A stretch of DNA of 64,000 bases from contig NZ_CP027858.1 of the NCBI RefSeq assembly GCF_005519465.1, positions 3,100,001 through 3,164,000 of the forward strand. The letters are read 5' to 3'. Positions within the stretch are counted from its first letter, which is position 1. Each line of letters opens with the position of its first letter. Made by a program: the position numbers and the translations under genes. The notes beneath the pieces are model-generated. The model made no database searches, was not told the DNA's origin, and was given only the letters and a program-made list of their open reading frames with translations. The stretch comes from Streptomyces clavuligerus (lineage in GTDB: Bacteria; Actinomycetota; Actinomycetes; Streptomycetales; Streptomycetaceae). Positions 11,546-64,000 of the stretch are shown here, one piece after another.

Positions 11546-11559
11546 GTCCCGATCTTGAG

Positions 11560-12007: not shown

Positions 12008-12064
12008 AGCACCAGTGACAGTGCGCACTGCCCACTCCCCCGGGGCGGCGGAATGCTTCCGTAC

Positions 12065-46925: not shown

Positions 46926-49900
46926 TCATTCCCCGGTGGCGCAGAATTCCCCGGACGAGTAGCCCTCGGACATCCGTCCGGTCAGTCGGGCCAGGCTCGC
47001 CCGGGCCCGGTCGGCCTCGTGGCCCACCCCGGTGCGGACGGCCACCTCGACGGCGGCGGCGATGTGTCCGACGGCGGAGCCGAGGTCGCCCAACTCCTCC
47101 TCGGCCAGGCCCAGTCCGTGGAGCGCCTGCATCTCCTCGTGGGCCGCCCGGATGCCGCGCGCCACGTCGAGGGCGCGCCGATGGTGGTCGGCGGCCGCCC
47201 GGTGCCGACCCGCCGCGTGCAGAGCGCGCCCCATTCCATGGAGGGTCTTGGAGGCATTGCGCCGATCCCCGAGCAGCCGGAAAGTCCGGAGGGATTCCCG
47301 ATACAACTCCATCATGGAATTCAATTCGGCAGGGGATTCCATGGTGTCGGCAATATTCGTCCGAGCGATGGTGACATCCGACCGGCTGCCGAGTTCGGTG
47401 AAGATATCCACGACCCGATAGAGAATCGCGCGGGCCGCGAGCATATTTCCGGCCCGCGTGTGGAGATCCGCGAGATTGTTGAGCGCACTGGCCGCCTTCT
47501 GGGCGTCGCCGACGGTCTGGAACCCTGTGAGCGCGGCCTCGAAATACTCCTGGGATTCCCCGAAGTCACCGAGGTAGAGATGGGTGATCCCGAGGTTGTT
47601 CCGGCAGCGGGCGATCTGGAGGGTGTCCCCCGTGCGGAGCACGAGCGCCAGGGTGCCGAGCTGGCGCTCCAGTGCCTCCCGCAGCCGCCCGAGGTGCCAC
47701 AGCACCAGTGCCATGAGATGCACCGCCTCCGTGGACAAGGCCGTGTCCCCCAGCTCCCGGCCCCCCTGGATCGCCCGCTCGTACGCGGTGAGCGCCTCCT
47801 CGTACTCCCCCCGGGACGACAGCGCGGTGGCCAGCTCCATCAGGGAGTGGGTCTCCGCCCGCCGGTCGCCCGAGCGCTGCCAGTGGTGGGCGGCGGCCAG
47901 GTGCATCTGCTGGGCCTCCACCGTGGCGCCCTCCTCCGTCAGGAAGCCGGCCAGGGAGTCCGCGAGGAGGGCCGCCTCGCGGTCGTGGCCGGTGGCGCGG
48001 CAGTGGCGTTCCGCCGCGATGAGACCGGTGCGTTCCGCCGCGATCCAGCGGCGGGCCGCGTGCGGGCCGTCCCACGGGGGTGGGGCGACGGCGGAGGCGG
48101 GCCGGGAGAGGACGGGCCGGAGCCGGCGGGGGTTGATCAACAGGTCCGCCGCGTGGGTCGCCCGGACATAGAAGACGACGAGCCGGTGGACGGCCCGCTC
48201 GCGTGCCGCGGGCGGGTCCTCGGCCGCCACCAGGTCACGCGAGAACTCCGCGAGCAGATCGTGCAGGGCAAAGCGCTCCGGTGTCGGCTCCTGGAGAAGA
48301 TGGGCGTCGAGGAGCGTTTCCAGGACGCGTTCCGCCCGGTCGACGGGGAGGCCGGCGAGAGCGGCGGCCACGTGGACATCGACATCGATACCGAAGCGCA
48401 GTCCGAGAAAACGAAAGAATTCTTTTTCTTGGGTGCTCAGATCGCGGTAGGACACGTCGAAGGTGAGGGCGACCGCGCGATCTCCGTCACGGAATTCTTT
48501 GAGCTTGCTTTCGCTGTTCGTGAGCTTGTGCAGAAAGTAGGTCGTCGTCCAGGTGGGCCGGGAGGCGAGACGACCGGCGGCGATCTCCAGGGCCAGCGGC
48601 AAGCAGCCCGCGAGCCGTACCAGCTCCAGGACTTCGCCGGTGTGCGGAGTGCGGTCCTCCCCGGCCACCGAGCGGAAGAGCGCGATGGCGTCCTGCTGGG
48701 GCAGCACCCCGAGCCGGATGGACCTGATGCCGGGAATGCCGGTGATCCGCCGCCTGCTGGTCACGATCACCAGCGAGGGCGAGGGCCCCGGCAGCAGGGG
48801 GTCGAGCTGTTCGGCGCTCGCCACGTCGTCGAGGACGATCACGGCCCGCCGGGAGCTGAGGAGCGTGCGCCAGAGGCCGACGAGGGCGTCCCGGTCGTCG
48901 GGGATGTCCGCGGGCGGGACCCCGAGGACGCGCAGCAGCGCGGTCAGCGCCTCCTCGGCCGTGAGCGGGGGCTGTCCGGGGACATGGGCCCGCAGATGCA
49001 GATGGATCTGCCCGTCGGGGAAGAACGGCTCCAGCCGTCGCGCGGCATGGCACGCCAGCAGGGTCTTCCCGACCCCGGGCATGCCGGAGACCGCCTGGAG
49101 CGCAATGATCCCGCCACCCGCCGCGCGATCGAAGGACCCGGCGGACCCGGACCCGGACCCGGCACCACCACCGCCACCACCACCGCCACCGCCACCGCCG
49201 ACACCAACGGCACCAACGGCACCAACGGCACCAACGGCCTCCCGGAGGATCGCCGCCAGCTCCTCCTCCCTGCCCACCAGATCGGCGTGGCGGGGCAGTG
49301 TCCGGGGGACGGCGGGCGCGGGCTCCGGGGAGCGCGTCAGCTCATGGACCGGACCGCCGCCCAGGATGTGGGCGTAGACACCGGCGAGGTGCTCCCCCGG
49401 GTCGGTGCCCGCCTCGTGGCGCAGGAGACGGCGGACGGTGTCGTAGCGGTGCAGCGCCTCCTCGCGCCGTCCACGGCCGTACGCCGCGATCATGTACTGC
49501 GCGACGAGGGTCTCGTCCATGGGGTGATCGTCGAGCAGCGCCGTCAGCTCGGGGACGAGTTCGGTGAAGTGCCCGAGCCGGAGGCCGACGTCGACCCGGG
49601 TGATCTGGGCGGCGAGCCGCTTCCCGGTCAGCAGGGCGCGGATGTGCTCCGCCCAGCGGCCCGTGAGTCCGGCCAGCGGCTCGTCCCACAGTTCCTCGCC
49701 GCGCCGCAGCAGCTCCAGCGCCTCCGCGTCGTTCCCCTCGTCGATCAGGGCGCGGGCCCGTTCCGTCAGGGTGCGGAAGAGATGGCAGTCCACCCGCTCG
49801 GGCGGGATCTCCAGCGTGTACGTATGGCTCGCCCGGCTGACCCGGGCGCACTCCCCGGCCTCCGCCAGGCGCTTGCGCAACCTGGCGACGTGCGGATACA

Positions 49901-50090
49901 GACTCTCGTACGGCTTGTCGGGCAGCACGTCGCCCCACAGCCGCCGGGCCAGGGCGTCCCGGGAGACCGGGCGCCCGGCGTCATAGGCGAGCGCGGCGAG
50001 AAACAGACGTTCCTTGGGCGTTCCGAGGGGGACGGCACCGGCCCCCCGGCCGAGTCGCACAGGTCCCAGAAGGTGAATGTCCACATCCAT
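46926..50090 (-). CDS. SARP-family regulator with NB-ARC and TPR domains (AfsR type)
   Basis: A 1,054-residue regulator. An N-terminal OmpR-like winged helix (residues 1-95, VSRDALARRLWGDVLPDKPYESLYPHVARLRKRL) and BTAD (100-245) form the SARP. NB-ARC follows with P-loop GMPGVGKTLLA (336-346) and AVIVLDDVAS, then C-terminal TPR helices (about 690-1040). The linker before the P-loop has an AVG repeat and 12 consecutive Gly residues from tandem DNA repeats. It probably activates promoters of neighbouring or secondary-metabolite genes upon ATP-dependent oligomerisation. The ATG at 50090 has GGGGGC upstream; an in-frame TTG (50105) is less likely. Confidence 0.9.
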   Translation of the reverse strand: MDVDIHLLGPVRLGRGAGAVPLGTPKERLFLAALAYDAGRPVSRDALARRLWGDVLPDKPYESLYPHVARLRKRLAEAGECARVSRASHTYTLEIPPERVDCHLFRTLTERARALIDEGNDAEALELLRRGEELWDEPLAGLTGRWAEHIRALLTGKRLAAQITRVDVGLRLGHFTELVPELTALLDDHPMDETLVAQYMIAAYGRGRREEALHRYDTVRRLLRHEAGTDPGEHLAGVYAHILGGGPVHELTRSPEPAPAVPRTLPRHADLVGREEELAAILREAVGAVGAVGAVGVGGGGGGGGGGGGAGSGSGSAGSFDRAAGGGIIALQAVSGMPGVGKTLLACHAARRLEPFFPDGQIHLHLRAHVPGQPPLTAEEALTALLRVLGVPPADIPDDRDALVGLWRTLLSSRRAVIVLDDVASAEQLDPLLPGPSPSLVIVTSRRRITGIPGIRSIRLGVLPQQDAIALFRSVAGEDRTPHTGEVLELVRLAGCLPLALEIAAGRLASRPTWTTTYFLHKLTNSESKLKEFRDGDRAVALTFDVSYRDLSTQEKEFFRFLGLRFGIDVDVHVAAALAGLPVDRAERVLETLLDAHLLQEPTPERFALHDLLAEFSRDLVAAEDPPAARERAVHRLVVFYVRATHAADLLINPRRLRPVLSRPASAVAPPPWDGPHAARRWIAAERTGLIAAERHCRATGHDREAALLADSLAGFLTEEGATVEAQQMHLAAAHHWQRSGDRRAETHSLMELATALSSRGEYEEALTAYERAIQGGRELGDTALSTEAVHLMALVLWHLGRLREALERQLGTLALVLRTGDTLQIARCRNNLGITHLYLGDFGESQEYFEAALTGFQTVGDAQKAASALNNLADLHTRAGNMLAARAILYRVVDIFTELGSRSDVTIARTNIADTMESPAELNSMMELYRESLRTFRLLGDRRNASKTLHGMGRALHAAGRHRAAADHHRRALDVARGIRAAHEEMQALHGLGLAEEELGDLGSAVGHIAAAVEVAVRTGVGHEADRARASLARLTGRMSEGYSSGEFCATGE
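49202..49237. repeat. Tandem 9-bp repeat inside the SARP gene
   Basis: Four copies of CACCAACGG, encoding the AVG repeat on the minus strand, next to a CCACCACCG-type tract that encodes poly-Gly. A length-variable linker is likely. Confidence 0.75.
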
Positions 50091-51285: not shown

Positions 51286-52899
51286 TCACACCCGTACCGG
51301 TACGGGTGCCTCCGCCAGCAGTGGCCAGCGGCGGGCCAGCCGGGTCGCCGCCTCCGTGACCGCCGGGTCCCGGGCCCCGAGCGCCACCCCGTTCAGATAG
51401 GACGCGGCGGCCGACTCGTAGAGACCGCCGACCGCGTGCAGCCGTGCCTCCTGTGCCCTCCGGCGCTCCGCCCGCCGTTCCGCGAGCGAGTTCAGCGCGG
51501 CCGACGCCCGCTCGATGTCCCGCTGGGCGTCCGCGATCTCCCGTTCCGCCGCGTCCAGCCGGGTCACGACATGGCGGTACGAGCCCAGATAGGGATGTTC
51601 GTCGCCCAGTCCGATGAGGAAGGCGATCCCGCCGGAGAGCAGAAGCAGGGCGATGAACATCGCCGACACACTGGTCTGCGACAGCTCCAGCGCGTCGACC
51701 GAGTTCTTCGGTGTGTACGTTCTGCCGTTGGTCGTTCTGGTCTCCGGCGGGGCGAAGATCAGTTTCGCCCGCAGCAGACCGAGCATCCAGGCCCCGTAGC
51801 CCCAGGCGGCGAGAATCCCCAGCGCGGGCAGGGCCGAGAGCTTGATCGCGCCGGTGGCGGCACGGCCCCGCAGGACCCGGGCCGCGCAGTGGGGCGCGAT
51901 GACCATCACCGTGGCGACGGCGAGGGTCAGACTGACGGACAGGGTCTCGCCCGTCCTGTCGTTCCCGTGCAGCCGCAGGAACACCACGTAGTAGACCGGG
52001 AGTTCCACCAGGGCGAGGAGGGTGAGCAGGGCGATCCGCGCGAGCGGGGAGAGTCCCGGGCGGGCCTTCGCCCCCTCCCACGCCGCCCGGGTGGCCTCGG
52101 CGGTGCCGTGCCCCGCTCCCGGGTCGTGTCCGGGATCGGCGAGCGACTGCCAGGTGTCCGTGCGGCGGCCGTCAGGGTGACGGGGGTCCGCGTGGCGGAG
52201 GTCCGTGCGACGGGGGTCCTCGCCGGGCCGTACGGGGACGTCCCGGCCGGAACGCGCTCCGCGGCCCGTCAGGCCCTCCGGGGCCTCCCCGGCGGCCGGT
52301 GGTGCCCCGGCGCGGCGGCGGCGCTCGTACCGCCCGACGAGACCGTCACGGAAGGCGTCCCAGCGGTCGGCGCGCCGGGCCAGCCGGTCGAGCTGGGCGA
52401 TGACGGTGTCCCGCCGGACCTCCAGCCGCTCCCGCCGCCGTTCCGCCCGCGCCCGCCGGTGGGTGCCCTCCTCGACGAGCGAGCGGAGCCGGCTCTCCTC
52501 CTGCACGGCGTCCTCGTCGGCCCGCGCCGATGCCACGACGAGCCGTGCCCGCACCCGGTCCCGCTGGTACTCCAGTGCCACGAGGTACGGAAGGCCGTCG
52601 GCGGCGGCCAGGACCCAGGGGTCGAAGACGCCGCGGGCCGCCGCCTGCGCGCCGTCCCGGCGGGCGCGCCGGACGAGCGGGTGCTCCCCCGCCTCCCGGA
52701 CGGCCCGGGACTCGACGGGCTCGGGCTGCGGCAGGGTTCCCTCGCGTGGATCACCGGTGTTCCGCCGTCCCCGGCGCGGTCCGCGGAACCGATGGGTCCG
52801 GTCCCTTCCGCCGAGGGTGCCGCGCAGCGGGCGCAACGGCCCGGGGCCGTTCCCGCCGCCGGTCCCCGTACCGTTCCTATCGATAGGTGGTGTGGACAC
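51286..52899 (-). CDS. Membrane protein with coiled-coil arms
   Basis: A 537-residue protein. The N-terminal 280 residues are Arg/Glu-rich and helical (RLRSLVEEGTHRRARAERRRERLEVRRDTVIAQLDRLA). Four or so TM segments follow (IALLTLLALVELPVYYVVFL, LTLAVATVMVIAP, LSALPALGILAAWGYGAWMLGLL, MFIALLLLSGGIAFLIGLG), then a C-terminal coiled coil (LDAAEREIADAQRDIERASAALNSLAERRAERRR). No enzyme motif. The GTG start overlaps the vWA lipoprotein gene by 23 nt. Third gene of a three-gene operon; it probably forms a membrane scaffold with its neighbours. Confidence 0.78.
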   Translation of the reverse strand: MSTPPIDRNGTGTGGGNGPGPLRPLRGTLGGRDRTHRFRGPRRGRRNTGDPREGTLPQPEPVESRAVREAGEHPLVRRARRDGAQAAARGVFDPWVLAAADGLPYLVALEYQRDRVRARLVVASARADEDAVQEESRLRSLVEEGTHRRARAERRRERLEVRRDTVIAQLDRLARRADRWDAFRDGLVGRYERRRRAGAPPAAGEAPEGLTGRGARSGRDVPVRPGEDPRRTDLRHADPRHPDGRRTDTWQSLADPGHDPGAGHGTAEATRAAWEGAKARPGLSPLARIALLTLLALVELPVYYVVFLRLHGNDRTGETLSVSLTLAVATVMVIAPHCAARVLRGRAATGAIKLSALPALGILAAWGYGAWMLGLLRAKLIFAPPETRTTNGRTYTPKNSVDALELSQTSVSAMFIALLLLSGGIAFLIGLGDEHPYLGSYRHVVTRLDAAEREIADAQRDIERASAALNSLAERRAERRRAQEARLHAVGGLYESAAASYLNGVALGARDPAVTEAATRLARRWPLLAEAPVPVRV

Positions 52900-53773
52900 G
52901 GGCCTTGAGCCTCCCTTCGAGCAACTCGGTCCAGAAGGCGTCGAAGCGCTGATAGGCGGCGGGCCGGGTCTTGTGCTTCATGCCGTAGCCCACCGGGTAG
53001 AGGTCCGCGCCCGACAGATCGGGGGTGCCGTTCGACGACAGCAGCCTCCCGATCGCCTCGGCGCGGCCCTGCTCCGTAGCCAGGTTCTGCCCGCTCATCG
53101 TGAAGTCGTCGTCGTTCTGCTCGAAGTCGCTCACCACCAGCACCGCGAAGGAGCCCTTCCGCCCCCCGGGCCCGGTGTCCGGCCCCGTGCCGGTCCCCTC
53201 ACCGGACCCTTCGGCGGGCCGCTCCCCGGACGGGCGGTGCTGCGCCATCCGGGACAGCGCCCCGACCACGTCCGAACCGGGCCGCTGCCGCTGCGCGCAC
53301 GTCAGCAGTTCACCGGCCGTCTTCAGCGCGTCGGCCCGCAACTGGCCCCGGTAGTGCTCGCGGTCCTCGGTGGCCGCGAGTTCGGGATCGAGGTCCACCG
53401 TGTTCGCCTGGCACTTTGACGACTGGGACGCCCTGGTGATCGGGGCGAAGGCGAGGGTGCGGCACCCGGTGTCGGTGAGGAACCGCTCCAGGCTGCCCCG
53501 GAGTTTGGCGCGGGCGTCGAAACCGGTCCGGCCGGCACTCCCGGAACCGGAGCCGTCGACCACGACCCCGCAGGCGCGGGTGTACCGCTCGCTCTCCTCG
53601 TTCAGGAGGCCGCAGGCGGAGCCGGTGAGCAGGGTGGTCAGGACGAGCACGAGCGCGGGTGCCGCCCGGCGGGCGGGCCGGGCGGTACGGACGGTACGGG
53701 GGAGTGCGCGGCGGCGGTGGGGGGCGGGTGCGGGGCCGTGCCGCCCCCGGCCCGCTCGGTCTCCAGCGGTCAT
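52877..53773 (-). CDS. Lipoprotein with vWA-like MIDAS motif
   Basis: A 298-residue protein. A long basic N-terminus leads to a hydrophobic stretch and lipobox LLTGSAC (Cys54), so it would be anchored outside the membrane. CGVVVDGSGSGS (Asp73, Ser75, Ser77) fits the DxSxS metal-ion-dependent adhesion motif of von Willebrand A folds, and SFAVLVVSDFEQNDDD fits the later Asp-bearing strand. A Gly/Thr/Pro low-complexity insert lies near residues 185-205. A vWA domain implies divalent-cation-dependent protein binding. Start overlaps the upstream gene's stop (ATGA). Confidence 0.75.
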   Translation of the reverse strand: MTAGDRAGRGRHGPAPAPHRRRALPRTVRTARPARRAAPALVLVLTTLLTGSACGLLNEESERYTRACGVVVDGSGSGSAGRTGFDARAKLRGSLERFLTDTGCRTLAFAPITRASQSSKCQANTVDLDPELAATEDREHYRGQLRADALKTAGELLTCAQRQRPGSDVVGALSRMAQHRPSGERPAEGSGEGTGTGPDTGPGGRKGSFAVLVVSDFEQNDDDFTMSGQNLATEQGRAEAIGRLLSSNGTPDLSGADLYPVGYGMKHKTRPAAYQRFDAFWTELLEGRLKARVHTTYR

Positions 53774-54591
53774 GACGGGGTCCTCCCTCCGGCGTGGCCG
53801 GTGTCCGGGGTGCCGGGTGTGTTGGACGTGTTGGATGGGGCGGGCGTGTTGGATGGGGCGGTCGGGGCGGCGCGGGGGCCGGGCGCGCCCGGCGCGGTGC
53901 CCGGGTCCCACCCGTGCCGGGCGTCCGGCGCGGGCCGACGGGGGCCGGGCGCGCCGCCCTGGCCGTCGAGCAGCCGCAGCGCCCGCGAGGTCGCCGTGCC
54001 CTCCCACTCGTCGTCGTCCAGCAGCCAGACGTCCGGCAGCCGCCAGGTGGTGTCCAGTTCCACCCGGCCGGGCAGCCACTCCGGCACGGGCCGCCGTTCC
54101 AGCAGGGCCAGCGGCTCGTGCTCCAGCAGCACGGACCGCCAGTACCAGGCGAGTTGCTGATTGGCCCGGTCGGCCACCGCCTGGGCGTGGGCCCGGCACA
54201 CATCCGTACGGACCCGCCACTCGCCCACCCAGCGGCCGTAACGGGCCAGCGCGGCGGGCAACGGCTCGCCCCGGACGTCGTACTGCGTGACCACCCGCAC
54301 CGACTCGGCGCGGAGTTCGGCGATACGGGCCCGCTCGCGCCGGATCAGCGCGGCCCGCATCTGTTCCGTGCTGCGCCGGGCGCTCATCCGGACCGCCGTG
54401 ACATACGGGGTCACCAGGAGCTGATCCGTCTCGGCCGGCCCGGTGGGCAGGGGCTCGCCGTCCGCACGCAGCGGCAGGCGGGGGATGCCGCGGGCCCCGT
54501 CCCGTCTGCCGCTCCATCCGGCGAACAGCCGCGCGGCACGGCCGAGTCCGCCGCGCCGGGCCACCCCGTTGACGCTGTCGGTTCTGATCAT
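53770..54591 (-). CDS. Hypothetical 273-residue protein, first gene of the envelope module
   Basis: MIRTDSVNGVARRGGLGRAARLFAGW... A helical core rich in Trp and Arg (VRMSARRSTEQMRAALIRRERARIAELRAESVRVVTQYD, YGRWVGEWRVRTDVCRAHAQAVADRANQQLAWYWR) ends in a Pro/Ala/Thr tail with PSNT repeats. No signal peptide or clear TM, so probably cytosolic. GGGGAAG lies 6 nt before the ATG at 54591. It overlaps the lipoprotein gene by 4 nt. No family recognised. Confidence 0.7.
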   Translation of the reverse strand: MIRTDSVNGVARRGGLGRAARLFAGWSGRRDGARGIPRLPLRADGEPLPTGPAETDQLLVTPYVTAVRMSARRSTEQMRAALIRRERARIAELRAESVRVVTQYDVRGEPLPAALARYGRWVGEWRVRTDVCRAHAQAVADRANQQLAWYWRSVLLEHEPLALLERRPVPEWLPGRVELDTTWRLPDVWLLDDDEWEGTATSRALRLLDGQGGAPGPRRPAPDARHGWDPGTAPGAPGPRAAPTAPSNTPAPSNTSNTPGTPDTGHAGGRTPS

Positions 54592-54927
54592 GAATGACTT
54601 CCCCCGCATTCCTCCGGACACGGAATTTCCGCGCCCGGACGAGGTATCACCATTTCTGCGCGATACGCACACGGGCCTTCGTCCGGCACCGTCAGCCGCA
54701 GGGATCGCAGGGATCACGCGGGCTTCGCACAGCCCGGCGGAGAATGCGCCGGGTGCGGTCGACGGTACCGAAGGCCCGTGCTTCCCGTACCCCTGGAGAA
54801 GCCCTTTTCCGGGTCCCGTCCGAACCCGCCCCGAAGCCGCCCGGGAATCACCCGGGAAGCGCCCGGGACAACCGTCCGGACATGGCCATACTCAAATGGA
54901 GGACGGGGAAAGGGGGGCGGAGTGGCC

Positions 54928-55803
54928 ATGGAGTCGAAGGACCGCGGGGACGGTCTCGGGCACGGTGCCGGAGACGGCGCCGGTCAGGGGCCCCGGCCGC
55001 GGATCAGGGTCGGCGACATCCGTTTCCCGGTCCGGACGCTGGGGCCGGGGGCGCGGCTCGGCATCTGGGTCCAGGGGTGTGTCCTCGCCTGCCCCGGCTG
55101 TATGTCGCGGCACACCTGGGACCCGCGCGGCGGGACCGTGCGGACGGTTCCGGAGCTGCTGGAGCTGTGGCGCACGGCGCTGGCGCGCGGGGCGGACGGG
55201 CTCACGGTCAGCGGCGGCGAACCGCTGGACCAGCCGGAGGGGGTCGCCGCCCTGCTGGCGGGGGCGGCCCGGCTGCGCACGGCGGCGGCGGGCCCGGCCG
55301 CCCCGGCCGATCTGCTCCTGTACACGGGTTACGAGGACGGCGAGATCGCCCGCGACCCGGCGCGCACGGCGGCCGTCCGGTCCGCCGACGCGCTGGTCAC
55401 CGGGCGTTTCCGGGCCGCGGAGCCCACCGGTCTCGTCTGGCGGGGCTCGGCGAACCAGCGGCTGCGGCCCCTCACCGCGCTGGGGCGGGCGCGGTACGCG
55501 GAGCACCTGGAGCGGGCCGAGGAGCCCGGTCCCCGGCTCCAGGCGGAGACGGCGGACACGGCAGGCACGACGGACACAGCGGACGCGGCTGGTGCGGCGG
55601 GCACAGCGGACACCGCCGGTGCGGCGGGCACAGCAGCCGCGGCGGACGCGGCCGAGGGGGAGGACGGAGGGAACGATGGACGGCTACGCCTCTACGGAGT
55701 GCCCCGCAGCGGTGAACTCGCCGCGCTGGAACGCGGGCTGCGGCACGCGGGCATCCGCCTCACCCGCGTGGGCTGGCGCTCCGGCAACCCACCGCCCCCC
55801 TGA
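54928..55803 (+). CDS. Radical SAM activating enzyme (NrdG/4Fe-4S activase-like)
   Basis: A 291-residue protein. GIWVQGCVLACPGCMSRHTW holds the CxxxCxxC cluster (Cys51, Cys55, Cys58), and DGLTVSGGEPLDQPEG is the SAM-binding GGE motif (96-98). It is close to the anaerobic ribonucleotide reductase/pyruvate formate-lyase activase class, but no glycyl-radical enzyme lies nearby. An inserted low-complexity ADTAGTTDTADAAGAAGT segment (about 212-250) splits the C-terminal part. The ATG at 54928 has GGGGGGCGGA upstream; GTG at 54922 is possible. Convergent with the macro-domain gene. Confidence 0.85.
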   Translation: MESKDRGDGLGHGAGDGAGQGPRPRIRVGDIRFPVRTLGPGARLGIWVQGCVLACPGCMSRHTWDPRGGTVRTVPELLELWRTALARGADGLTVSGGEPLDQPEGVAALLAGAARLRTAAAGPAAPADLLLYTGYEDGEIARDPARTAAVRSADALVTGRFRAAEPTGLVWRGSANQRLRPLTALGRARYAEHLERAEEPGPRLQAETADTAGTTDTADAAGAAGTADTAGAAGTAAAADAAEGEDGGNDGRLRLYGVPRSGELAALERGLRHAGIRLTRVGWRSGNPPPP

Positions 55804-55828
55804 GCCGTCCGCCCCGACGGCCGGAGGG

Positions 55829-56917
55829 TCAGCGGGGGCGGATGGCGTCCGCCGTCGCACGGTCGCGGACCACCAGATGCACCTGCCGGTCCGGGTCCTT
55901 GGCCAGTTCGTCGCGGATCGCCCAGCGCAGCCAGGTCGCGCTGAGGGCCCGGTCGAGACCGCCGTGGCCCGCGCCGAGGAGGGGGAAGCAGATCGAGCGG
56001 AGGGGGGTGCCCCCGCGTTCGCTCTCCTCCCGCGCGAGCGCGAAACAGGCGCTCACCGCGCGGGCGATGCTCGACGGGTCGACCCGGTAGCCGTCCTCGT
56101 GCGGGACGACCACCGCCGCGTGGTAGATCCGCCGGATGCCCCGGACCGCGAGCGCGCCCGACGACGTGGGGACCACCGTCCCCGGCCGTACGGGGAGCCC
56201 GGGGCGGCCATGGGTGCGCAGCCAGGCGCCCAGTTCACGGACGAGGACATCGTCCACGATCTCCCCGGCGGGGTCGCGCACGGCGGCGGCCAGCCGGAGC
56301 GAGCCGGAGACCGTGGGCCGGAAGGTCTTGGACATCTCCAGATAGACGTTCTCGGACGAGACCAGGACGTCGATGTCCCGCAGCAGTTCGACGGGGGACA
56401 CATGCAGCGTCACCGTGCCCCGTCCGCCCACGGGCACCTGCTCGATGCGTTTCGGGGGCCGCTCGGGCCCGGTGGCGCCGAGAGCCGCCGGGGGCAGCGC
56501 GGCGACGGGCGGCTCGCGCAGCACCGCCAGCACGGCTTCGGCGAGCTGCTGGAGGACCTGGGGTTCCTGGTGCTTGCGGAAGCGCTCGGAGGTCACCCCG
56601 TACACGGCGGCGGCCATCTTGCGGCGGTCGGGCGCGGGGGCGCCCCGGCGGTCGGGGAGGAGTCCGAAGGTGTGGGCCGCCGCCCGGCCGAGCAGATCGC
56701 CCTCGCCGAGCCGGCGCACGGCCGCCTTGAGCAGGGCCTCGATGCCCGCGGGTATGTCGTCGGGGCCGCCGCAGAAGCCACCGGCGAGCGCGGCGGTGCG
56801 CAGCGCCGTGTGACCGCCGCCGCGCAGCCCGGCGAGACCGGGCCTGCGGATGTTCCGCAGTTCTTCCAGGAGTTGGTCGTACGCGGGCGGCGAGGCGGGC
56901 AATTGCTCCTGACTCAT
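55829..56917 (-). CDS. Macro-domain protein with N-terminal helical domain
   Basis: A 362-residue protein. Residues 1-150 are helical (PAYDQLLEELRNIRRPGLAGLRGGG and a YGVTSERFRKHQEPQVLQQLAEAVLAVL segment like that of short effector-associated modules). Residues 165-355 form a macro domain: DIDVLVSSENVYLEMSKTFRPTVSGSLRLAAAV, then IYHAAVV and ICFPLLGAGHGGLD, the ligand loop for ADP-ribose-like molecules. It could read or remove ADP-ribosylation. The ATG at 56917 lacks a Shine-Dalgarno but follows TAACCT by 7 nt. It is divergent from the kinase gene. Confidence 0.85.
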   Translation of the reverse strand: MSQEQLPASPPAYDQLLEELRNIRRPGLAGLRGGGHTALRTAALAGGFCGGPDDIPAGIEALLKAAVRRLGEGDLLGRAAAHTFGLLPDRRGAPAPDRRKMAAAVYGVTSERFRKHQEPQVLQQLAEAVLAVLREPPVAALPPAALGATGPERPPKRIEQVPVGGRGTVTLHVSPVELLRDIDVLVSSENVYLEMSKTFRPTVSGSLRLAAAVRDPAGEIVDDVLVRELGAWLRTHGRPGLPVRPGTVVPTSSGALAVRGIRRIYHAAVVVPHEDGYRVDPSSIARAVSACFALAREESERGGTPLRSICFPLLGAGHGGLDRALSATWLRWAIRDELAKDPDRQVHLVVRDRATADAIRPR

Positions 56918-56924
56918 GGCCGTC

Positions 56925-56930
56925 AGGTTA
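56925..56930 (-). promoter_or_regulatory. Predicted -10 of a leaderless macro-domain gene promoter
   Basis: TAACCT, 7 nt, ATG on the minus strand, the same geometry and hexamer as at dnaX. Confidence 0.45.
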
Positions 56931-57059
56931 GCGAGCGAGCGTCCGGCGGTCGATGCCCGGAACGCAGGGAATCCGCCATTCCGCACGGCCGGGACAACGG
57001 ATTTCCCTTTTCGTCCCACGTTCCCCGGCAACTCCAGAACAGAAATTCGGGAAATCGGC

Positions 57060-57240
57060 TCCCCGGCCCCCTTCCCACCCTCTTCCGCTCTCCTTCCCAC
57101 CCTCTTCCCCTGCCCTTCAGGATCTCCACTTCCCGTTCCCTCTCGCGTGCTCCTTCTGCTCTTTGCGCTCTCCCGTTCTCCGCTCCCCGCTCCCCGCTCC
57201 CCGCGCTCTGTCCTCCGTCCTCCGCTCTCCGTTCTCCGTA
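57060..57240. repeat. Polypyrimidine tract upstream of the kinase gene
   Basis: About 180 bp of nearly pure C/T on the plus strand with repeated CTCCGTT, CTCCCCG and TTCCC words, in the divergent region between the macro and kinase genes. Nothing coding is seen. It may form unusual DNA structure or a purine-rich leader on the other strand. Confidence 0.7.
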
Positions 57241-57253
57241 CGAGGTGAACTCC

Positions 57254-59914
57254 GTGGCCCTCCCTCCGCCCACCGAGCACGAACCGCCCGACCCGCCGGT
57301 CACCGATGTCGAGCAGGCGACGGACGCCGGGCCGGTCACCGATGTCGAGCCCGTGACCGGCGTCGCGCCCGCCACGGACATCGAGCCCCGCGACCGCCCC
57401 CGGCCCCGACGGGCCCCCGGGTCCTCCCCGTCCTCCTCCTCGTCCGCCTCGTCCGCCTCGTCCCCCTCGTTTTCCTCCCGCTCCCTCCGGGGCGACACCG
57501 GCGGCCTCCCCCGCTCCCTCCACGACCGCTTCCGGCTGCTGTCCGTGCTCCGCAGGCCCGAACACCCGCACCAGGCGGCCGTCTTCCGGGTCCGGGACAC
57601 CGCCCACGGAGCAGCGATCCGGGTCCTCAAGTGGTACGACCGCGAACACGCCCCCGAACCCGAGGTGTGGGAGCTGCTGCGCACACCCCACCCCCGCCTC
57701 GCCCACCTCGTCGAGGCCGACCCCGCCGGAGCCGACGGCCACCCCTACGACCTCGCCCCCTCCTACGGGGAGACCGACCTCGCCGCACGGTCGCGCGCCG
57801 AACCCGGCCCGGCCCCGGTCCCGTTCGTCACCGCCGTCGTCCGTCAGGCGCACGAGGCCCTGACCACGCTCCACGGCCTCGGCGTCGTCCACCGGGACAT
57901 CAGCCCCGCGAACCTCGTCCTCGGCAGCCTGGACCCCGCCGACCCCGAGCTGACCCTGGTCGACTTCGGTGTCTCCGCGTACGCCCCCGACGGGCGCGCC
58001 ACCCGGGGCAGGCACTGGGTCGGCACCCTGCCCTATCTCTCCCCCCAGGCGCTGATCCGCAGCCAGTCGATCCACCGGCCCGCCGACTGGTGGTCGCTGG
58101 GAATGATCGCCGCCGAGCTGGCCGGTGGCCGCCACCCCATCCGTTACCACGGGGACGAGAACATCCAGGAGGAGATCGTCTCCCGCGCCCCCGACCTCCG
58201 CCGGGTGACCGACCCCCGGCTGCTGGTGCTGTGCCGGGGGCTGCTGACCCGCGACCCGGACCACCGCTGGGGCGCCGACGAGGTGGCCCGGTGGCTGGCG
58301 GGCGAACTGCCCCCGGTGGCGCCCCCGGCGGAGGGCCGGACGGCGGGCGCGGCACCGCACGGGACACCGGAGCGGGACGGGCTCGCCGTCGAGCCGTACG
58401 CCTTCCTGGGCGAGGAGTTCACCCGTCCCCAGGCGCTCGCCCCGGTCTTCGCCGAGAACTGGGAGAGCATGCGCAGGGCGCTGCGCGGACGCCGGGGCCG
58501 GGAGGAGTTCGTCCGCTGGCTGGGGCAGTTCGACGGGGTCGCGGGCCGGGACCCGGCGGAACGCGCCGCGCTGACAGGGCTGCTGGCCGACGCCCCCCGG
58601 CCCGCGACGCTGGTCCGGCTGGTCTCCTGGCTCGGCCCGGGGCTCGACGCCTCCTACCGGGGCCACCCGCTGGACCGGGCGGGGGTCGGGGAGCTGGCCC
58701 GCGCCGCCCTGGGCGGGGACGAACTCGCGGGCTCCGTCGTCGGGGAGCTGCGGGAGCACACCCTGCTGCCGCTGCTCGACCACCGGCCGGGCGGCGCGGG
58801 GCTCCGCCGGCTGGACCGGGACTGGGTCGCCGCGCTCTCCCACTGGGAGAGCCAGGTGGAGAACCTGTTCGCGGAGTTCCCCTCGCTGCGCGGCGCCGAG
58901 GACGTCGTCCGCCGTCTGACGGCCGTCTCCGACCACCGCAGGGCCGGTCTGCTGGCGCTCGTCGCCCATCCGGCGGCCCACCGGACCACGCTGACGGAAC
59001 GCGCGGAACGCACCCTCGCGGGGCTGCCGTGCCCGGTGCCCTGGTACGAACGTCTCGTCCGGGACCGGGACGGGGCCGCCCACCCGGACGCGGCCGACGG
59101 CACAGCCGGCGGCAGGGGCACGAGCACAGGAACCGGCAGGGGCACGGGCCCGGGCACAGGCACAGGAACCGGCAGGGGCACGGGCCCGGGCAGGGCCCCG
59201 TCGTTCCTCCCCGACCTCGTCCGGCTCGCGCTCGCCGACCGGCTCGCGGGACTCGCCGAGAACGAGTCCTGGCAGGAGCGGCACCGCGCCGACCGCGAGC
59301 GGGCGATCCACCGCGGGCTGCTGGACGAGGACGCGGCGGCGCGCTGGCTCCGCCGCCAGGACCTGCCGCCCACCCTCGGCCGGGCGGTCGCCGGGGCCCT
59401 CGCGCTCATCCTCCCCTGGATCTTCCTCATCGGCCTGAGCGACGTGCTGGGCTGGGCCCCGCCCGCGACCGTGCTGACGGCGTGGCTGCTCGCGGTGCCC
59501 GCCGCCGCCGCGACGCTGGCGATCGAACTGCTGACGGCGTACCGGATCGGCAGCCCCGCCTACCACCCCGACCGCTCGCTCGCGGGGCTGCTCGTCGACC
59601 GTGCCCTGCCCCTGGCCCGGTTCGTCCGGCAGCCGGGCGCGCGCTTCCCGGTCCGGGGGCTGCTGCTCCTCGTCCCGTTCGCGCTGCTGGGCCTCGCCGT
59701 CGTGCACGCGCCCTGGCTCTGGCCCCTCGTCACCGTCCTGGCGCTGGGCGGGTGGAGTGTGCGGCGGCTCCACGACTGGCATCGATTCACCACCGGACTC
59801 CGGGCCGGGGCGGGGGCGGGTTCGGGGGCCCGTCCCGGCCCCGGTCCGGGCAGCACCCCGGAGCGGGAACGGCCACTCCCCTCGGGGCGCCCCGGGAACG
59901 GGGGCGGAGCATGA
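57254..59914 (+). CDS. Membrane Ser/Thr protein kinase
   Basis: An 886-residue protein. Residues 1-80 are low complexity (TDVE repeats and a Ser run). The kinase domain spans about 90-315 with VAIK-like Lys in IRVLKWYD (Lys126), the catalytic loop VVHRDISPANLVL (His213-Asp215, Asn220), DFG in LTLVDFGVS (237-239) and GTLPYLSPQAL. The Gly loop is poorly conserved. A helical middle follows, with a Gly/Thr tandem-repeat linker near 615-650 and TM segments at about 705-830. GAGGTGA lies 5 nt before the GTG at 57254. The stop overlaps the next gene (ATGA). Confidence 0.87.
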   Translation: MALPPPTEHEPPDPPVTDVEQATDAGPVTDVEPVTGVAPATDIEPRDRPRPRRAPGSSPSSSSSASSASSPSFSSRSLRGDTGGLPRSLHDRFRLLSVLRRPEHPHQAAVFRVRDTAHGAAIRVLKWYDREHAPEPEVWELLRTPHPRLAHLVEADPAGADGHPYDLAPSYGETDLAARSRAEPGPAPVPFVTAVVRQAHEALTTLHGLGVVHRDISPANLVLGSLDPADPELTLVDFGVSAYAPDGRATRGRHWVGTLPYLSPQALIRSQSIHRPADWWSLGMIAAELAGGRHPIRYHGDENIQEEIVSRAPDLRRVTDPRLLVLCRGLLTRDPDHRWGADEVARWLAGELPPVAPPAEGRTAGAAPHGTPERDGLAVEPYAFLGEEFTRPQALAPVFAENWESMRRALRGRRGREEFVRWLGQFDGVAGRDPAERAALTGLLADAPRPATLVRLVSWLGPGLDASYRGHPLDRAGVGELARAALGGDELAGSVVGELREHTLLPLLDHRPGGAGLRRLDRDWVAALSHWESQVENLFAEFPSLRGAEDVVRRLTAVSDHRRAGLLALVAHPAAHRTTLTERAERTLAGLPCPVPWYERLVRDRDGAAHPDAADGTAGGRGTSTGTGRGTGPGTGTGTGRGTGPGRAPSFLPDLVRLALADRLAGLAENESWQERHRADRERAIHRGLLDEDAAARWLRRQDLPPTLGRAVAGALALILPWIFLIGLSDVLGWAPPATVLTAWLLAVPAAAATLAIELLTAYRIGSPAYHPDRSLAGLLVDRALPLARFVRQPGARFPVRGLLLLVPFALLGLAVVHAPWLWPLVTVLALGGWSVRRLHDWHRFTTGLRAGAGAGSGARPGPGPGSTPERERPLPSGRPGNGGGA

Positions 59915-61530
59915 GCACCGGTATGGGCTACTACACCGTCGACTCGGTCCTGCCCGACGTGTCCCTCCCCGTCTCCCCCTCCGTCGACGCCTCCGAAGCG
60001 GCCGGACAGGTCCTGGACGCCGCCCTGGACCAGGCACAGGACCTGCTGCTCCCCGCCCTCGTCGGGCTCGGCTCGCTCAGCGGCGCCCTGCTCGCCGGAC
60101 GGGCCGCCCTCGCCGGGACGCAGCTGCTCGCGGAGGCCGCGATCCGGGCCGCCGGGGCGCAGCGGGAGCTGCGGCGGCAGCGCGTCGACGCCTGCCGGGC
60201 CGCCGAGTGCTGGCGCCAGGCCGCCTTCGCCGCCGCCGGGGTCAACGCGCGGATCGAGACCCTGGCCGTCCGGGTGCGGAAGGCGGAGCTGCCCCCGGGG
60301 CCCGACGGCCCGCCGGTCCCGCCGCCGCTGTCCCCCGTGGGCATGACGCTGGGGCAGCTCTGGGAACGGCTCGCCGCCACCGAGCGGCGGCTGCGCTCGG
60401 CCGAGGCGGCCCAGGCCCGCGCCGAGCTGGAGCGGACGCCCCTCGTCGCCACCGGGGTCCCCGGGAGCGACCGGCTCGCGCTGCGGCTGCGGGAGCGGCG
60501 GGCCCGGGCGCTCGCGGAGTACGCGCTCACGACGTCCGCCGACGCCCCCCGCGACCGGCCGCCGGAGCGGCCCGTCGCGCCCTCCGGCGAGTCGGCCGTC
60601 TCCTTCGGCGTGGAGCTGATCGCCAGGCTTCCCCCGGATGTGGACCCCGCGGACCGGCTCCTGGTCGAGGAGGCGGTCGCCGTGGCCGCCGAGGAGGCCG
60701 CCGCCGGACGGGCCGCGGCCGCCGGACGCCATCTGCGGGAGGCCGAGCAGTTCGCGGACCGCGCGGTCCGCGCGGCCGGGCGGCGGCGGGAGGCACGGGA
60801 GTGGGCGGCCCTCCAGCTCGGCTTTCTGCGGGACGCCCCCGCCGGTCTGCCGCCGGAGGCGGCGAACGCGCTGCCCACCGCCCCGCCGGACGAGATCGCG
60901 CTGCTGGAACGGACACTGGACGGGGGAGAGCCACCGGACGAGGCCCTGCGCGCCCGGATCGGGGCCCGGGTCGGGAACCGGACCTCCGCGCTGCGGCAGC
61001 TCTACACCGCCCAGGTCGTCCGGGCGGTGCTCCGGCGCACGGCCGACGGCTCCCGGGCCGCCGCCCCGGCGCGCGAACGCGGACGGGGGACCGCGCAGAA
61101 CGCGGGGAACCCCCCGGGCACCGTGGACTGGACCCCGCCCGGCTGGGGCGGAGAGCACTGGCTGCGGCTGATCCCGACGGACAGCGGACACGCCCGCGTG
61201 GTCACCATGCACCGCGCCCGCCCGGCCGGGACGGAGACCGAGGACGACCGGGACCGCGACCGGCGGCGCTGTGCCGAGGCACCCCGTCAACTGCGCGCGC
61301 TGGAGCGGCTGCTCGACCGGGCCGAGGTGACGATGCGCCTGACGTTCGACCCGGTCCCCGTCCCGGCCCCGGTCTCCGTGCCGGAAGCGTCGGCCGCGCG
61401 GGCCCCCGTCGCGGCGGACCGCGCACGCGCCCGGCGGGGCGACGGTCCCCAGGCCCGCGCCCTCGACCGTCCCGACCGTCCCGACCGTCCGAAGCGTTCC
61501 GACCGGCCCGGACCGGAGCCCCGGCGGTGA
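59911..61530 (+). CDS. Hypothetical coiled-coil protein between kinase and AAA+ genes
   Basis: A 539-residue protein rich in Ala, Arg and Glu. Long helical stretches (AAGAQRELRRQRVDACRAAECWRQAAFAAAGVNARIETLAVRVRKAEL, LWERLAATERRLRSAEAAQARAELE, VEEAVAVAAEEAAAGRAAAAGRHLREAEQFADRAVRAA) point to an extended scaffold. A weak hydrophobic segment lies near residues 45-65. The last 100 residues contain a beta-like patch (GGEHWLRLIPTDSGHARVVTMH). It shares four-base overlaps with both neighbours, so all three are stoichiometrically linked. No known family. Confidence 0.75.
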   Translation: MSTGMGYYTVDSVLPDVSLPVSPSVDASEAAGQVLDAALDQAQDLLLPALVGLGSLSGALLAGRAALAGTQLLAEAAIRAAGAQRELRRQRVDACRAAECWRQAAFAAAGVNARIETLAVRVRKAELPPGPDGPPVPPPLSPVGMTLGQLWERLAATERRLRSAEAAQARAELERTPLVATGVPGSDRLALRLRERRARALAEYALTTSADAPRDRPPERPVAPSGESAVSFGVELIARLPPDVDPADRLLVEEAVAVAAEEAAAGRAAAAGRHLREAEQFADRAVRAAGRRREAREWAALQLGFLRDAPAGLPPEAANALPTAPPDEIALLERTLDGGEPPDEALRARIGARVGNRTSALRQLYTAQVVRAVLRRTADGSRAAAPARERGRGTAQNAGNPPGTVDWTPPGWGGEHWLRLIPTDSGHARVVTMHRARPAGTETEDDRDRDRRRCAEAPRQLRALERLLDRAEVTMRLTFDPVPVPAPVSVPEASAARAPVAADRARARRGDGPQARALDRPDRPDRPKRSDRPGPEPRR

Positions 61531-63734
61531 ACACGGCGGAGGGGAGCGGATCGCGCATGCCGCGGAACAGGGCGGGGGCGGGCCGCGAGCGGCGGCTCCC
61601 CGCCTTCACGGAGGAGCTGACCGGCACCCTCGGGGTGCACGCCCAGTACGTCCTGCACGGCAACATCCGGGACGTCCATCTCGTACGCCACGACACCGCC
61701 CCCGGCGGCGGGGACCGGCGCTCCCCCGACCGGGCCCACAGCCTCACGGAGGTGCTGTGGAACGCGCTGCGGCCCGAAGGGTACGAGGCGCTCGTCCGCT
61801 ACAACGTCCTGGACGGCTTCTCCGTGGTCACGGGCACGGCGGCGGACGAGGTCCGGGAGCTGCTGTCCGCGTCCGGCGGGAACGGGCCCGCTCCCTCCCC
61901 CGGGCCCGGTACGGCGGGCCGGGGCGCGGAGGGCTCGGGGCCGCAGCCCGGCGTGGAGCGCCTGCTCCACTCGATCGTCACCGGCTGGCGGCACCACCGC
62001 CCGCGCGGGGGGCCGTCCCGCCCGGGGGACGCGCGCCTCCCGCTCTCCCCCCGGCAGGACCCGTACCGCGTGGTCCTGCTGATCGACTACGCGGCGCGCA
62101 TCCCCACCGATGTGTCCCGGCTGAGCGACCCCGAACGGGACTTCTTCCTCGGCTGTCTGAAACTCGCCGAGGAGGCCCGGCCGCTGCCCGCCCCGGACGG
62201 CGGGCGGCGGCTGTTCAACCCGCTGATCTGGCTGGTCGAGGGCGAGCGCGATCTGCCGTCCTGGCTGGTGGCGGGCAGCGAGCGGATCCGGACGATCGGC
62301 ATCCCGCTGCCCGACCTCGGGTCCCGGCAGCGGATGGCCCGTCTCCTGGCCGCCGACCACCGGGCGTGCGCGGAGGCCGGGGCCACGGAGCCCGGGGCGG
62401 CCCCGGAGGGCCCCGCCCCCGTACGTCTCACCAAGCGGCCGACCGCCGACGCGTCCACCGCCCGCACATCCGCCGCCGACGCACTCGCCGCCCACCCGTC
62501 CACCGCCGCCGCACTCACCGACGACACGTCCACCGCCGACGCGTTCGCCGTCGACGCGTTCGCCCGGAGCACCGCCGGGCTGACCCTGCGGGCGATGCGG
62601 GAGAGTTCCCGGATGGCGCTCGACCGGGGGCTGCCGTTCAGCGCGATGCGGGACGCCGTCCGCGTCTACCAGCTCGGCGTCGAGGACAACCCCTGGCAGC
62701 GCGGCTCCGTCCGGGAGCAGATCAGAAAGGGCGAGTCGTACATCCGCGGCCGGGTGAAGGGTCAGGAGAAGGCCGTCGCGAAGACCCTCGACATCCTCAA
62801 GCGGGCGGCCCTCGGCCTCTCGGGCGCCCAGGCCTCGCACTCCGGCAGCCGTCCGCGCGGCGTCCTCTTCTTCGCCGGGCCGACCGGCACCGGCAAGACG
62901 GAGCTGGCGAAGTCGGTGGCCACGGTCCTCTTCGGCACCGAGGACGCCTGTCTCCGCTTCGACATGAGCGAGTTCTCCGCCGCGCACTCGGTGGACCGGC
63001 TGGTGGGCGCGCCGCCCGGATATGTGGGGTACGAGGCGGGGGGCGAGCTGACGACGGCGGTGCGCAACGACCCGTTCCGGGTGGTGCTGTTCGACGAGAT
63101 CGACAAGGCCGACCGGGGCGTTCTCGACAAGTTCCTCCAGGTCCTGGAGGACGGACGGCTGACCGACGGCCAGGGTGTGACCACGTACTTCAGCGAGTGC
63201 GTGCTCATCTTCACCTCCAACCTCGGGGTACGGGGCGGGGGCCCGGCGGGCGGCACGGGGCGGGTGGCGCGGCCCGGCATGCCGTACGAGGAGCTGGAGG
63301 AGGTCGTCCTCGGCAACGTCAAACACCACTTCGTGGAGGAGATCGGCAGGCCCGAGCTGATGAACCGGCTCGGCGGCAACGTGGTCGTCTTCGACTACAT
63401 CGCGGACCAGGTCGCCGCGGAGATCTTCGATGTGCAGATCCGCAATATCCAGCGGGTGCTGCGGGACGAGCAGGGGGTGCTGCTGCGGCTGACGGAGGAG
63501 GCCCGGCACACCCTCTCCGCGCGGTGCACGGCCGACACCGACAACGGCGGACGCGGTATCGGCATGCTGCTGGAGACCCTGTTGATCAATCCGCTGGCGC
63601 GGGAGCTGTTCGACCGGGAGACCCTGTACGGGACCGAGGTCACGGTGGTGGACGTACGGGTGGGGCCGGACGGGGCTCCGGCGCTCGCGCTCCGGGTCGC
63701 GCCGCTGGACGGGACGCCGGGGGACCACCGGTGA
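61527..63734 (+). CDS. ClpB-like AAA+ ATPase with degenerate first AAA domain
   Basis: A 735-residue protein. The C-terminal AAA_2 domain is complete: Walker A FAGPTGTGKTELA (451-458 core), pore-type APPGYVGYEAGG, Walker B VVLFDEID (519-526), sensor 1 FTSNLG, arginine-finger region IGRPELMNRLGGNVVVF and a ClpB D2-small domain. The N-terminal 290 residues keep a Walker B-like VVLLIDYAAR and a sensor-like RTIGIPLPD but no Walker A, so that ring is probably inactive. The two are joined by a Thr/Ala/Asp repeat linker (about 303-345). GTG at 61527 overlaps the upstream stop; an ATG at 61557 with GGAGGGGAG is an alternative start. Confidence 0.88.
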   Translation: MNTAEGSGSRMPRNRAGAGRERRLPAFTEELTGTLGVHAQYVLHGNIRDVHLVRHDTAPGGGDRRSPDRAHSLTEVLWNALRPEGYEALVRYNVLDGFSVVTGTAADEVRELLSASGGNGPAPSPGPGTAGRGAEGSGPQPGVERLLHSIVTGWRHHRPRGGPSRPGDARLPLSPRQDPYRVVLLIDYAARIPTDVSRLSDPERDFFLGCLKLAEEARPLPAPDGGRRLFNPLIWLVEGERDLPSWLVAGSERIRTIGIPLPDLGSRQRMARLLAADHRACAEAGATEPGAAPEGPAPVRLTKRPTADASTARTSAADALAAHPSTAAALTDDTSTADAFAVDAFARSTAGLTLRAMRESSRMALDRGLPFSAMRDAVRVYQLGVEDNPWQRGSVREQIRKGESYIRGRVKGQEKAVAKTLDILKRAALGLSGAQASHSGSRPRGVLFFAGPTGTGKTELAKSVATVLFGTEDACLRFDMSEFSAAHSVDRLVGAPPGYVGYEAGGELTTAVRNDPFRVVLFDEIDKADRGVLDKFLQVLEDGRLTDGQGVTTYFSECVLIFTSNLGVRGGGPAGGTGRVARPGMPYEELEEVVLGNVKHHFVEEIGRPELMNRLGGNVVVFDYIADQVAAEIFDVQIRNIQRVLRDEQGVLLRLTEEARHTLSARCTADTDNGGRGIGMLLETLLINPLARELFDRETLYGTEVTVVDVRVGPDGAPALALRVAPLDGTPGDHR

Positions 63735-64000
63735 CCGCCGGGGCCCGCGACGCCCCCTGGTGGACCGAGCCGGACGACGGGCCGACCGGACCCGGGCGAG
63801 AGGAGACGGACACCGGCACCACCGCCGACACCGACACGAGTGGACCCGGCACCGGCACCGGCACCGGCACCGGTGGACCCGACACCGCCGACGCCGGTGG
63901 AACCGCCGCCGGTACCGGCGCCGCGCCGGAAGGGGAACGGGACCGGGCGGCGGAACCGGAACCGGAGCCGCCGGAGACCTGCGCGAACTGCCATGACCCG
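63731..64000 (+). CDS. Partial gene after the AAA+ ATPase, possible zinc-ribbon protein
   Basis: The GTG at 63731 overlaps the AAA+ stop (GTGA), and the frame is open to the window edge (90 codons seen). The visible part is a low-complexity, Asp/Thr/Gly-rich linker with GTGTGTG-type repeats, ending in PPETCANCHDP, the first half of what may be a zinc ribbon. The rest lies beyond the window. Its coupling shows that the operon continues to the right. Confidence 0.7.
   Translation, partial: MTAGARDAPWWTEPDDGPTGPGREETDTGTTADTDTSGPGTGTGTGTGGPDTADAGGTAAGTGAAPEGERDRAAEPEPEPPETCANCHDP

Follow-up and report, generated by a model that had tools for sequence, protein, structure and literature searches.

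The 64,000-nucleotide stretch of the Streptomyces clavuligerus chromosome analysed in this study (contig NZ_CP027858.1, positions 3,100,001 to 3,164,000; hereafter the window, whose first letter is position 1) carries at its right-hand end a gene cluster that runs on past the window edge and that may encode a signal-gated toxin system. The genome is 8.54 Mb in size and comprises two contigs (here C1 and C2), the second of which is a 1.8-Mb megaplasmid whose genes are matched at 100% identity by S. clavuligerus plasmid records. An S. clavuligerus database protein is likewise identical to the AAA+ protein of the cluster along the 73% that it spans.

The left part of the cluster is an envelope operon on the minus strand, which encodes a coiled-coil protein with approximately three predicted transmembrane stretches (CC; 51286..52899; no Pfam family, its own family being present in 54 loci including this one), a vWA-like protein with a D-G-S-G-S MIDAS-type motif (52877..53773; no Pfam match) and a third protein, LP, for which neither a Pfam family nor a transmembrane stretch nor a lipobox was found (53770..~54606). 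Divergent from LP and on the plus strand lies a gene for a radical SAM/4Fe-4S protein (rSAM; 54928..55803; Fer4_12 9e-24, Radical_SAM 1e-7), for which NrdG is the nearest named family, with a score under the NrdG cut-off, and the promoter region between the two genes holds an operator-like element of tandem 11-bp direct repeats, GAANNCGNCCG (54822..54865, plus strand). A macro-domain protein with a conserved N-terminal region follows on the minus strand (55829..~56938; Pfam Macro 6.6e-6, 26.5 bits against a cut-off of 22). The plus strand then encodes a membrane Ser/Thr kinase with C-terminal transmembrane stretches (57254..59914; Pkinase 5e-22), a scaffold protein with a single N-terminal hydrophobic stretch (59911..61530; no Pfam family), an AAA+ protein with a ClpB-D2 ring (61527..63734; AAA_2 5e-45, ClpB_D2-small 1.5e-7) and an FHA protein with a possible zinc ribbon, whose gene crosses the window edge at 64000 (63731..64423, corresponding to L010:1731-2423 in the extended locus; FHA 8e-10). 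Each neighbouring pair of these four genes overlaps by 4 bases. Beyond the edge and convergent with the FHA gene are a RES gene (window-equivalent 64449-65108, minus strand; Pfam RES 2.5e-18) and the closely spaced gene upstream of it, encoding the RES partner that we call ANTI (window-equivalent 65102-65797, minus strand), after which comes a gene that appears by eye to be transporter-like. Gene starts represent a choice among candidate codons, and the scaffold, vWA-like, LP and CC proteins gave zero Pfam matches at E <= 1.

All of the genes named in the initial annotation of this DNA, which was made from the sequence alone, are present in the order and with the overlaps that it described, and its radical SAM, macro, kinase and AAA+ labels are backed by Pfam, the AAA+ protein being of the ClpB-D2 type. 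Its proposal that one AAA+ ring is dead holds true of the family, since a Walker A motif occurs in the N-terminal half of 1/71 members and in the C-terminal half of 70/71, in contrast to the two active rings of ClpB/ClpV disaggregases. The vWA-like protein had been described as a lipoprotein, and this may apply to most of the family, 33 of 45 members of which match the lipobox pattern, but not to the window's own protein (LTGSAC); none of the 44 members of the LP family matches this pattern. The columns of the MIDAS-type motif are conserved at >= 95% in 44 aligned vWA-like members, again without a Pfam match, and the vWA-like gene of a variant locus, L118, scores 24.9 bits, under the Pfam cut-off of 27. 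The Cys-containing gene that was seen to run off the window encodes the FHA protein, with a zinc-ribbon match that falls below the cut-off.

Searches based on the N-terminal portion of the AAA+ protein, by means of two peptide patterns, identified 70 loci with named organisms (52 from Streptomyces and 18 from other genera; not a census), a number that rules out a chance neighbourhood. The co-occurrence analysis that had been suggested at the outset, extended to the genes right of 64000, revealed that the set stays together and recurs in these 52 other Streptomyces loci. Their gene order is CC, vWA, LP, rSAM, macro, kinase, scaffold, AAA+ and FHA, with RES-ANTI positioned either behind FHA or past CC, and with the positions of macro and rSAM swapped in a few species. 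RES is present in 42 of the 52 loci and the remaining ten end where RES could lie, so that no locus with adequate flank lacks it; one of these ten, L047, has RES, ANTI and CHAT in a longer stretch (L115). The macro gene is found in 45/52, the other seven beginning past its place, and 28 of the 29 ANTI-bearing Streptomyces loci also possess a gene for a caspase-like TPR-CHAT protein, L032 being the exception. Other exceptions are L064, in which the kinase is not matched and the macro gene is shortened, and L040, which is fragmentary. The kinase K/HRD/N/D residues and those of the C-terminal AAA+ ring are conserved. In Streptomyces, the core genes are joined to an effector set consisting of CHAT-ANTI-RES and macro. 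Among the 18 loci of other genera the core is retained (all 18 have AAA+, 17 have rSAM, 17 the kinase, 17 FHA and 14 CC), the scaffold is swapped for another family and an OmpA-type lipoprotein is among the core neighbours.

In Pseudonocardiaceae (L074, L075, L076, L078, L085 and L086), the kinase, AAA+ and FHA genes are surrounded by two CHAT-family genes (with a Pfam match on one) and an OmpA-type lipoprotein gene; the same loci contain an AAA_16 ATPase gene and a gene that appears sigma-like by eye, with no Pfam match.

The effector genes are also linked to one another when viewed apart from the core. Among 150 Streptomyces genomes, RES was detected in 30 (29 over the Pfam cut-off) and all 24 macro genes lie <= 12 kb from a RES gene; conversely, 24 of the 27 strong RES genes lie <= 12 kb from a macro gene, as compared to none of the 13 weaker ones, where strong and weak were divided at E 3e-15 after viewing the list. 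This analysis included 40 of 42 RES rows, two under the Pfam cut-off being omitted, and a macro match that fell into two pieces was counted as one. Of the three strong RES genes that are without macro, the one in L123 keeps ANTI and CHAT, while those in L121 and L122 are without any other called gene of the system. Macro, ANTI, RES and CHAT occur together in 22 of 23 loci (the megaplasmid locus L095 and 22 from the 150 genomes; the chromosomal locus of the window is omitted from this count owing to the absence of CHAT), the exception being L100, where the macro gene is accompanied by a RES match but ANTI and CHAT were not called. Eight of these 22 four-gene loci possess the full kinase core, 13 are clearly without kinase and scaffold and one (L102, on a short contig) is ambiguous; in two of the 13, L118 and L120, there is an AAA+ and rSAM set of a diverged kind. 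Since it is found without the core and with diverged sets, macro-ANTI-RES-CHAT behaves as an independent module, one that is joined to AAA+/rSAM units of more than one type.

Within this module, 47/53 ANTI-RES pairs have gaps of -7 to +5 bases (44/50 without three loci that were counted twice) and CHAT overlaps ANTI in 33/41 pairs (32/38 likewise), counting same-strand pairs only with gaps > -60 and < 300 (ANTI-RES) or < 600 (CHAT-ANTI) bases. The spacing of CHAT, ANTI and RES is therefore as for one operon. At least four of the loci are duplicates, L101, L103, L104 and L115 being the same sequences as L038, L052, L030 and L047 of the 70-locus set. Regarding the proteins themselves, 14/16 macro members match Macro at E <= 1, with TTHA0132 (1.6e-5) and AF1521 (0.0055) as solved relatives. 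RES is the sole Pfam match of the RES protein at E <= 1, its R, E and S columns are conserved (their assignment to catalytic residues was made by eye) and the homologue in the megaplasmid cassette described below bears the RefSeq name 'RES family NAD+ phosphorylase'. The CHAT genes match Pfam CHAT at 9e-39 and 7e-37, and the dyad residues are retained in most members (H in 33/34, C in 31/34).

The S. clavuligerus genome holds three main CHAT regions, namely L095 and L096 on the second contig and L097 near one end of the chromosome. The L095 CHAT gene lies in a four-gene macro-ANTI-RES-CHAT cassette, which is accompanied by a Peptidase_C14 (caspase) gene (L095:7470-14885, C2:1115470-1122885), whereas that of L096 stands alone. 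The latter encodes a protein that keeps His and Cys and that, in a tree built from 52 C-terminal regions of CHAT proteins, is sister to eight cluster-adjacent CHATs (from S. inusitatus, S. violaceusniger and others) with a support of 100/99. It is likely, judging by this grouping, that the L096 CHAT is the partner of the S. clavuligerus cluster, and the pathway would then span two replicons because the CHAT that groups with the cluster lies on the megaplasmid. When plasmid records were searched, the L096 CHAT was found at 100% in two records of 1.79 Mb, the other eight matched records being < 60% identical, and the four-gene cassette was found in 15 S. clavuligerus plasmid records at 27 places, 12 of them having two places each. 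Of these 15 cassette-bearing records, the two of 1.79 Mb hold the relocated CHAT and the other 13, within this search of plasmid records only, show no high-identity match, a difference that would offer a natural experiment if the proposed mechanism is correct. The third CHAT gene is situated a few kb from genes that appear by eye to be like those for the tail sheath and tube of a contractile injection system (stretches L097:3-5838 and 9346-13218).

The element is a run of three tandem 11-bp repeats, which may resemble SARP and PhoP sites. At >= 18 of its 24 informative positions, it gave 66 matches in 53 loci (964 kb, approximately 10% intergenic), of which 55 are in promoters of the system and 11 elsewhere, seven of these within genes; a control, a single shuffle in 200-base blocks, gave nine uncollapsed matches. 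In the whole genome of S. clavuligerus, allowing <= 3 mismatches, the element occurs at only two places (with 0 for the reversed pattern): as two overlapping matches in the LP-rSAM promoter (C1:3154822-3154865) and upstream of ANTI-RES (C1:3165947-3165979). A match at this locus was to be expected since this locus was among those from which the consensus had been derived; the informative part is the uniqueness. When a matrix was trained on 35 LP-promoter sites, none of them from this locus, it ranked the LP-rSAM site first within the surrounding 42 kb (25.2) and the ANTI upstream site second (21.4), followed by a site inside the macro gene (13.7). Of the 23 loci that allowed the test, 14 had their highest-scoring remaining site upstream of CHAT. 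With a repeat-averaged matrix, scores above the 99th percentile of 3382 background windows were obtained for 5/8 operon-first CHAT genes, 2/6 caspase genes, 4/21 macro genes and 0/3 ANTI genes. The L096 CHAT gene is among these five, having a weak element 83 bp upstream whose score is equalled or exceeded in 0.44% of background windows; this element (15.8) is weak evidence because similar scores occur inside genes (15.6 in L097). The element may be described as a candidate operator-like sequence that is common to two promoters of the system. Outside Streptomyces, 2/18 loci gave weak matches and 16 gave none above the listing score. We also considered whether the radical SAM protein has a small peptide as its substrate. 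Matches in the intergenic open reading frames searched for this purpose fell in many frames and pointed to the 11-bp repeats in the DNA, and we make no claim of a peptide.

Based on these findings, we judge the chances to be about even that the cluster encodes a signal-gated toxin system, in which a relay from envelope to cytoplasm would free an NAD+-consuming RES enzyme through CHAT proteolysis, and in which the macro protein would read or clear the product. Going by the protein families, RES would cleave NAD+ by phosphorolysis in the manner of MbcT, yielding ADP-ribose-1''-phosphate, and ANTI would keep RES inactive. The membrane kinase would signal through FHA recognition and the AAA+ protein would remodel the complex, passing the envelope signal to CHAT, while the macro protein would bind or hydrolyse the ADP-ribose product, thereby limiting damage or reporting that RES had fired; the outcome would be dormancy or death of the hyphal compartment. 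In the available text of PMC8883491, MbcT is reported to convert NAD+ and phosphate to ADP-ribose-1''-phosphate, and the macrodomain proteins Poa1P and MacroD1/2 to hydrolyse a related ADP-ribose cyclic phosphate, and the available text of PMC9503650 likewise describes RES enzymes as phosphorolysing NAD+. In light of these reports, the pairing of toxin product and macro substrate would be the simplest reason for the linkage of the RES and macro genes.

Several observations weigh against this interpretation. The destruction or detachment of ANTI by triggered CHAT is a step that we purely infer, and the CHAT gene is absent beside the S. clavuligerus chromosomal cluster, as it is in L032. The 18 loci of other genera contain CHAT-family genes in 11 cases, RES in one and macro in two, which indicates that the toxin is not the only output of the core. 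The distribution is patchy, the macro family (E <= 1e-20) being present in 19/150 Streptomyces genomes and in 4/396 genomes of a phylum sample, and the AAA+ protein (E <= 1e-60) in none of the 24 other same-genus genomes of the first sample. A comparison of the RES profile with solved chains returned no RES structure, the best matches being antibody chains (E 0.015 and worse). The identity of ANTI as a standard Xre-type antitoxin was rejected for want of profile support: PF09722, the Xre/MbcA/ParS C-terminal antitoxin domain, was found in 0/14 ANTI members at E <= 5, and a single-sequence hhalign comparison between ANTI and the XRE-like partner that accompanies the second RES gene in the window was insignificant (P 0.27). 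No PF09722 antitoxins were found in the 14 genomes searched for comparison material. Concerning the element, 9/23 CHAT upstream regions, five of them in one CHAT clade, fail to hold the top matrix site, and matrix scores of 13-16 are also reached inside genes, as in L097 and the macro gene at this locus.

The tight spacing of ANTI and RES bears on an alternative akin to DarTG, in which RES would ADP-ribosylate a cellular macromolecule, the macro protein would be the antidote removing this modification, and ANTI and CHAT would only tune expression or stability. The spacing points to ANTI rather than to macro as the cognate partner, the macro gene lying approximately 4-8 kb away from RES in core loci, and one of the three macro-less strong RES genes retains ANTI and CHAT; RES enzymes are, furthermore, described as acting on NAD+ itself in the available text of PMC9503650. 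We regard this alternative as unlikely, despite the proximity of all 24 macro genes to RES in the 150-genome sample and the presence of AF1521 among the solved macro relatives. Macro domains do reverse ADP-ribosylation, and ADP-ribosyltransferase-type RES toxins have been reported, both of which speak for it. A role in envelope homeostasis or in secretion control, akin to the kinase-FHA-ClpV regulation of type VI secretion and with RES, ANTI and macro as passengers, would account for the co-occurrence of kinase, FHA and ClpB/V-type AAA+ genes, for the weak matches of the FHA protein to TagH (7e-4) and of the AAA+ D2 part to TssH/ClpV (both under cut-off) and for the membrane proteins and OmpA-type lipoprotein that other genera have in their core. 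We nevertheless find it distinctly improbable, as contractile-tail genes were not recognised among the cluster families, the Streptomyces core loci that lack RES are the ten incomplete ones, and the common element links ANTI-RES to the core promoter.

An anti-phage defence island acting by abortive infection would be compatible with the signal-gated toxin system, whose biological purpose it would supply. Patchy presence (19/150 genomes), the occurrence of caspase, CHAT, RES and kinase parts in conflict systems and the location of the four-gene cassette on a megaplasmid argue for such a role, yet a phage trigger is not known and the PADLOC matches of ten scanned proteins were to kinase and AAA models only, covering those domains alone. 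Carriage of the cluster RES by phages was rejected as no relative was found in 50,697 phage records at E <= 1e-8, and on balance we consider this purpose somewhat doubtful. A more far-reaching version of the signal-gated toxin system, which on present genomic data we hold to be improbable, would be a suicide or dormancy pathway: an envelope signal would pass through the kinase-FHA-AAA+ relay to the caspase-like CHAT and on to the NAD+ phosphorylase, and ADP-ribose-1''-phosphate would be an alarm read by the macro protein, possibly as a transcription factor acting through its N-terminal region at the 11-bp-repeat operator, with the S. clavuligerus protease on the megaplasmid and the toxin on the chromosome.

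Among known systems, RES-Xre/MbcTA shares with the cluster a RES-domain enzyme and a closely spaced upstream partner gene, but ANTI is not recognisable as PF09722 and the cluster adds a CHAT protease, a macro protein, a signalling module and an operator-like element that is also present at the envelope operon. DarTG likewise links an enzyme of the ADP-ribosyltransferase superfamily to a macro protein; in contrast, the enzyme of the cluster is of the RES type, its macro gene is separate and diverged, the gene in close spacing with the enzyme is a third one, ANTI, and a protease is present. The TPR-CHAT proteins of CRISPR (Csx29) and conflict systems have a similar long N-terminal region and CHAT domain with a Cys-His dyad, whereas the CHAT of the cluster is linked to RES-ANTI-macro and CRISPR parts were not seen in the cluster. 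Similarly, the type VI post-translational switch PpkA-Fha-ClpV combines a kinase, FHA and a Clp-type AAA+ protein, while the cluster has no recognised secretion apparatus and its predicted toxin is intracellular. The MoxR-vWA ternary systems (VMAP, iSTAND; Kaur et al. 2020, PMC7159879) resemble the cluster, as far as the available text goes, in combining vWA-like and AAA+ proteins with peptidase-type effectors, and kinase, FHA and macro effectors are mentioned for them in the same text; the whole word RES occurs 0 times in that paper. Membership of the cluster in that group was rejected, however, given that its AAA+ protein is of the ClpB-D2 type and not MoxR (AAA_2 5e-45 and ClpB D2-small, with ClpB/ClpV/ClpA as the best NCBIfam models); VMAP was not identified in it. 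The initial suggestion of a conflict or stress-signalling system with an ADP-ribose link thus appears to be partly supported: it is strengthened by the finding of RES, ANTI and CHAT, but the cluster falls outside the MoxR-vWA definition.

No description of this gene set was found in the literature searched, most subscription journals being outside its reach; PMC7159879, in its available text, is the nearest and has other cores, and the gene set is not described in the available text of PMC8195603 and PMC10907252. The system accordingly appears to be new among toxin-antitoxin and conflict systems, on genomic evidence that is strong, the biochemistry being what the protein families would predict. 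If the proposed mechanism is correct, caspase-like proteolysis, NAD+ destruction and ADP-ribose reading would be joined in a single bacterial pathway that takes its input from the envelope, in parallel to eukaryotic death signalling. It would furthermore provide RES toxins with an upstream signalling system and ADP-ribose-1''-phosphate with a proposed in-cell role. Streptomyces are known for mycelial death.

Other genes of the window were noted in passing. A gene at 42574-44829 has an AAA_16-type match under the cut-off and an N-terminus that is caspase-like by eye, and is adjoined by a gene for an LCAT-type alpha/beta hydrolase (45074-46552), the pair resembling the caspase/hydrolase pairing described for VMAP systems in the available text of PMC7159879. 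Between this pair and the envelope operon lies a gene for a SARP-like regulator with NB-ARC and TPR regions recognised by eye (46926-50060, minus strand), which was rejected as a regulator of the cluster because it falls in no family common to the other cluster copies. The second RES gene of the window (38946-39638, minus strand; Pfam RES 5.3e-7 on 39150-39800) has an upstream partner (37937-38323, minus strand), with which it may form an ordinary RES-Xre pair; the C-terminus of this partner presumably resembles the usual RES-Xre antitoxin motif. Near this second RES gene is a gene for what appears by eye to be an IS30-like transposase (36351-37424, minus strand).

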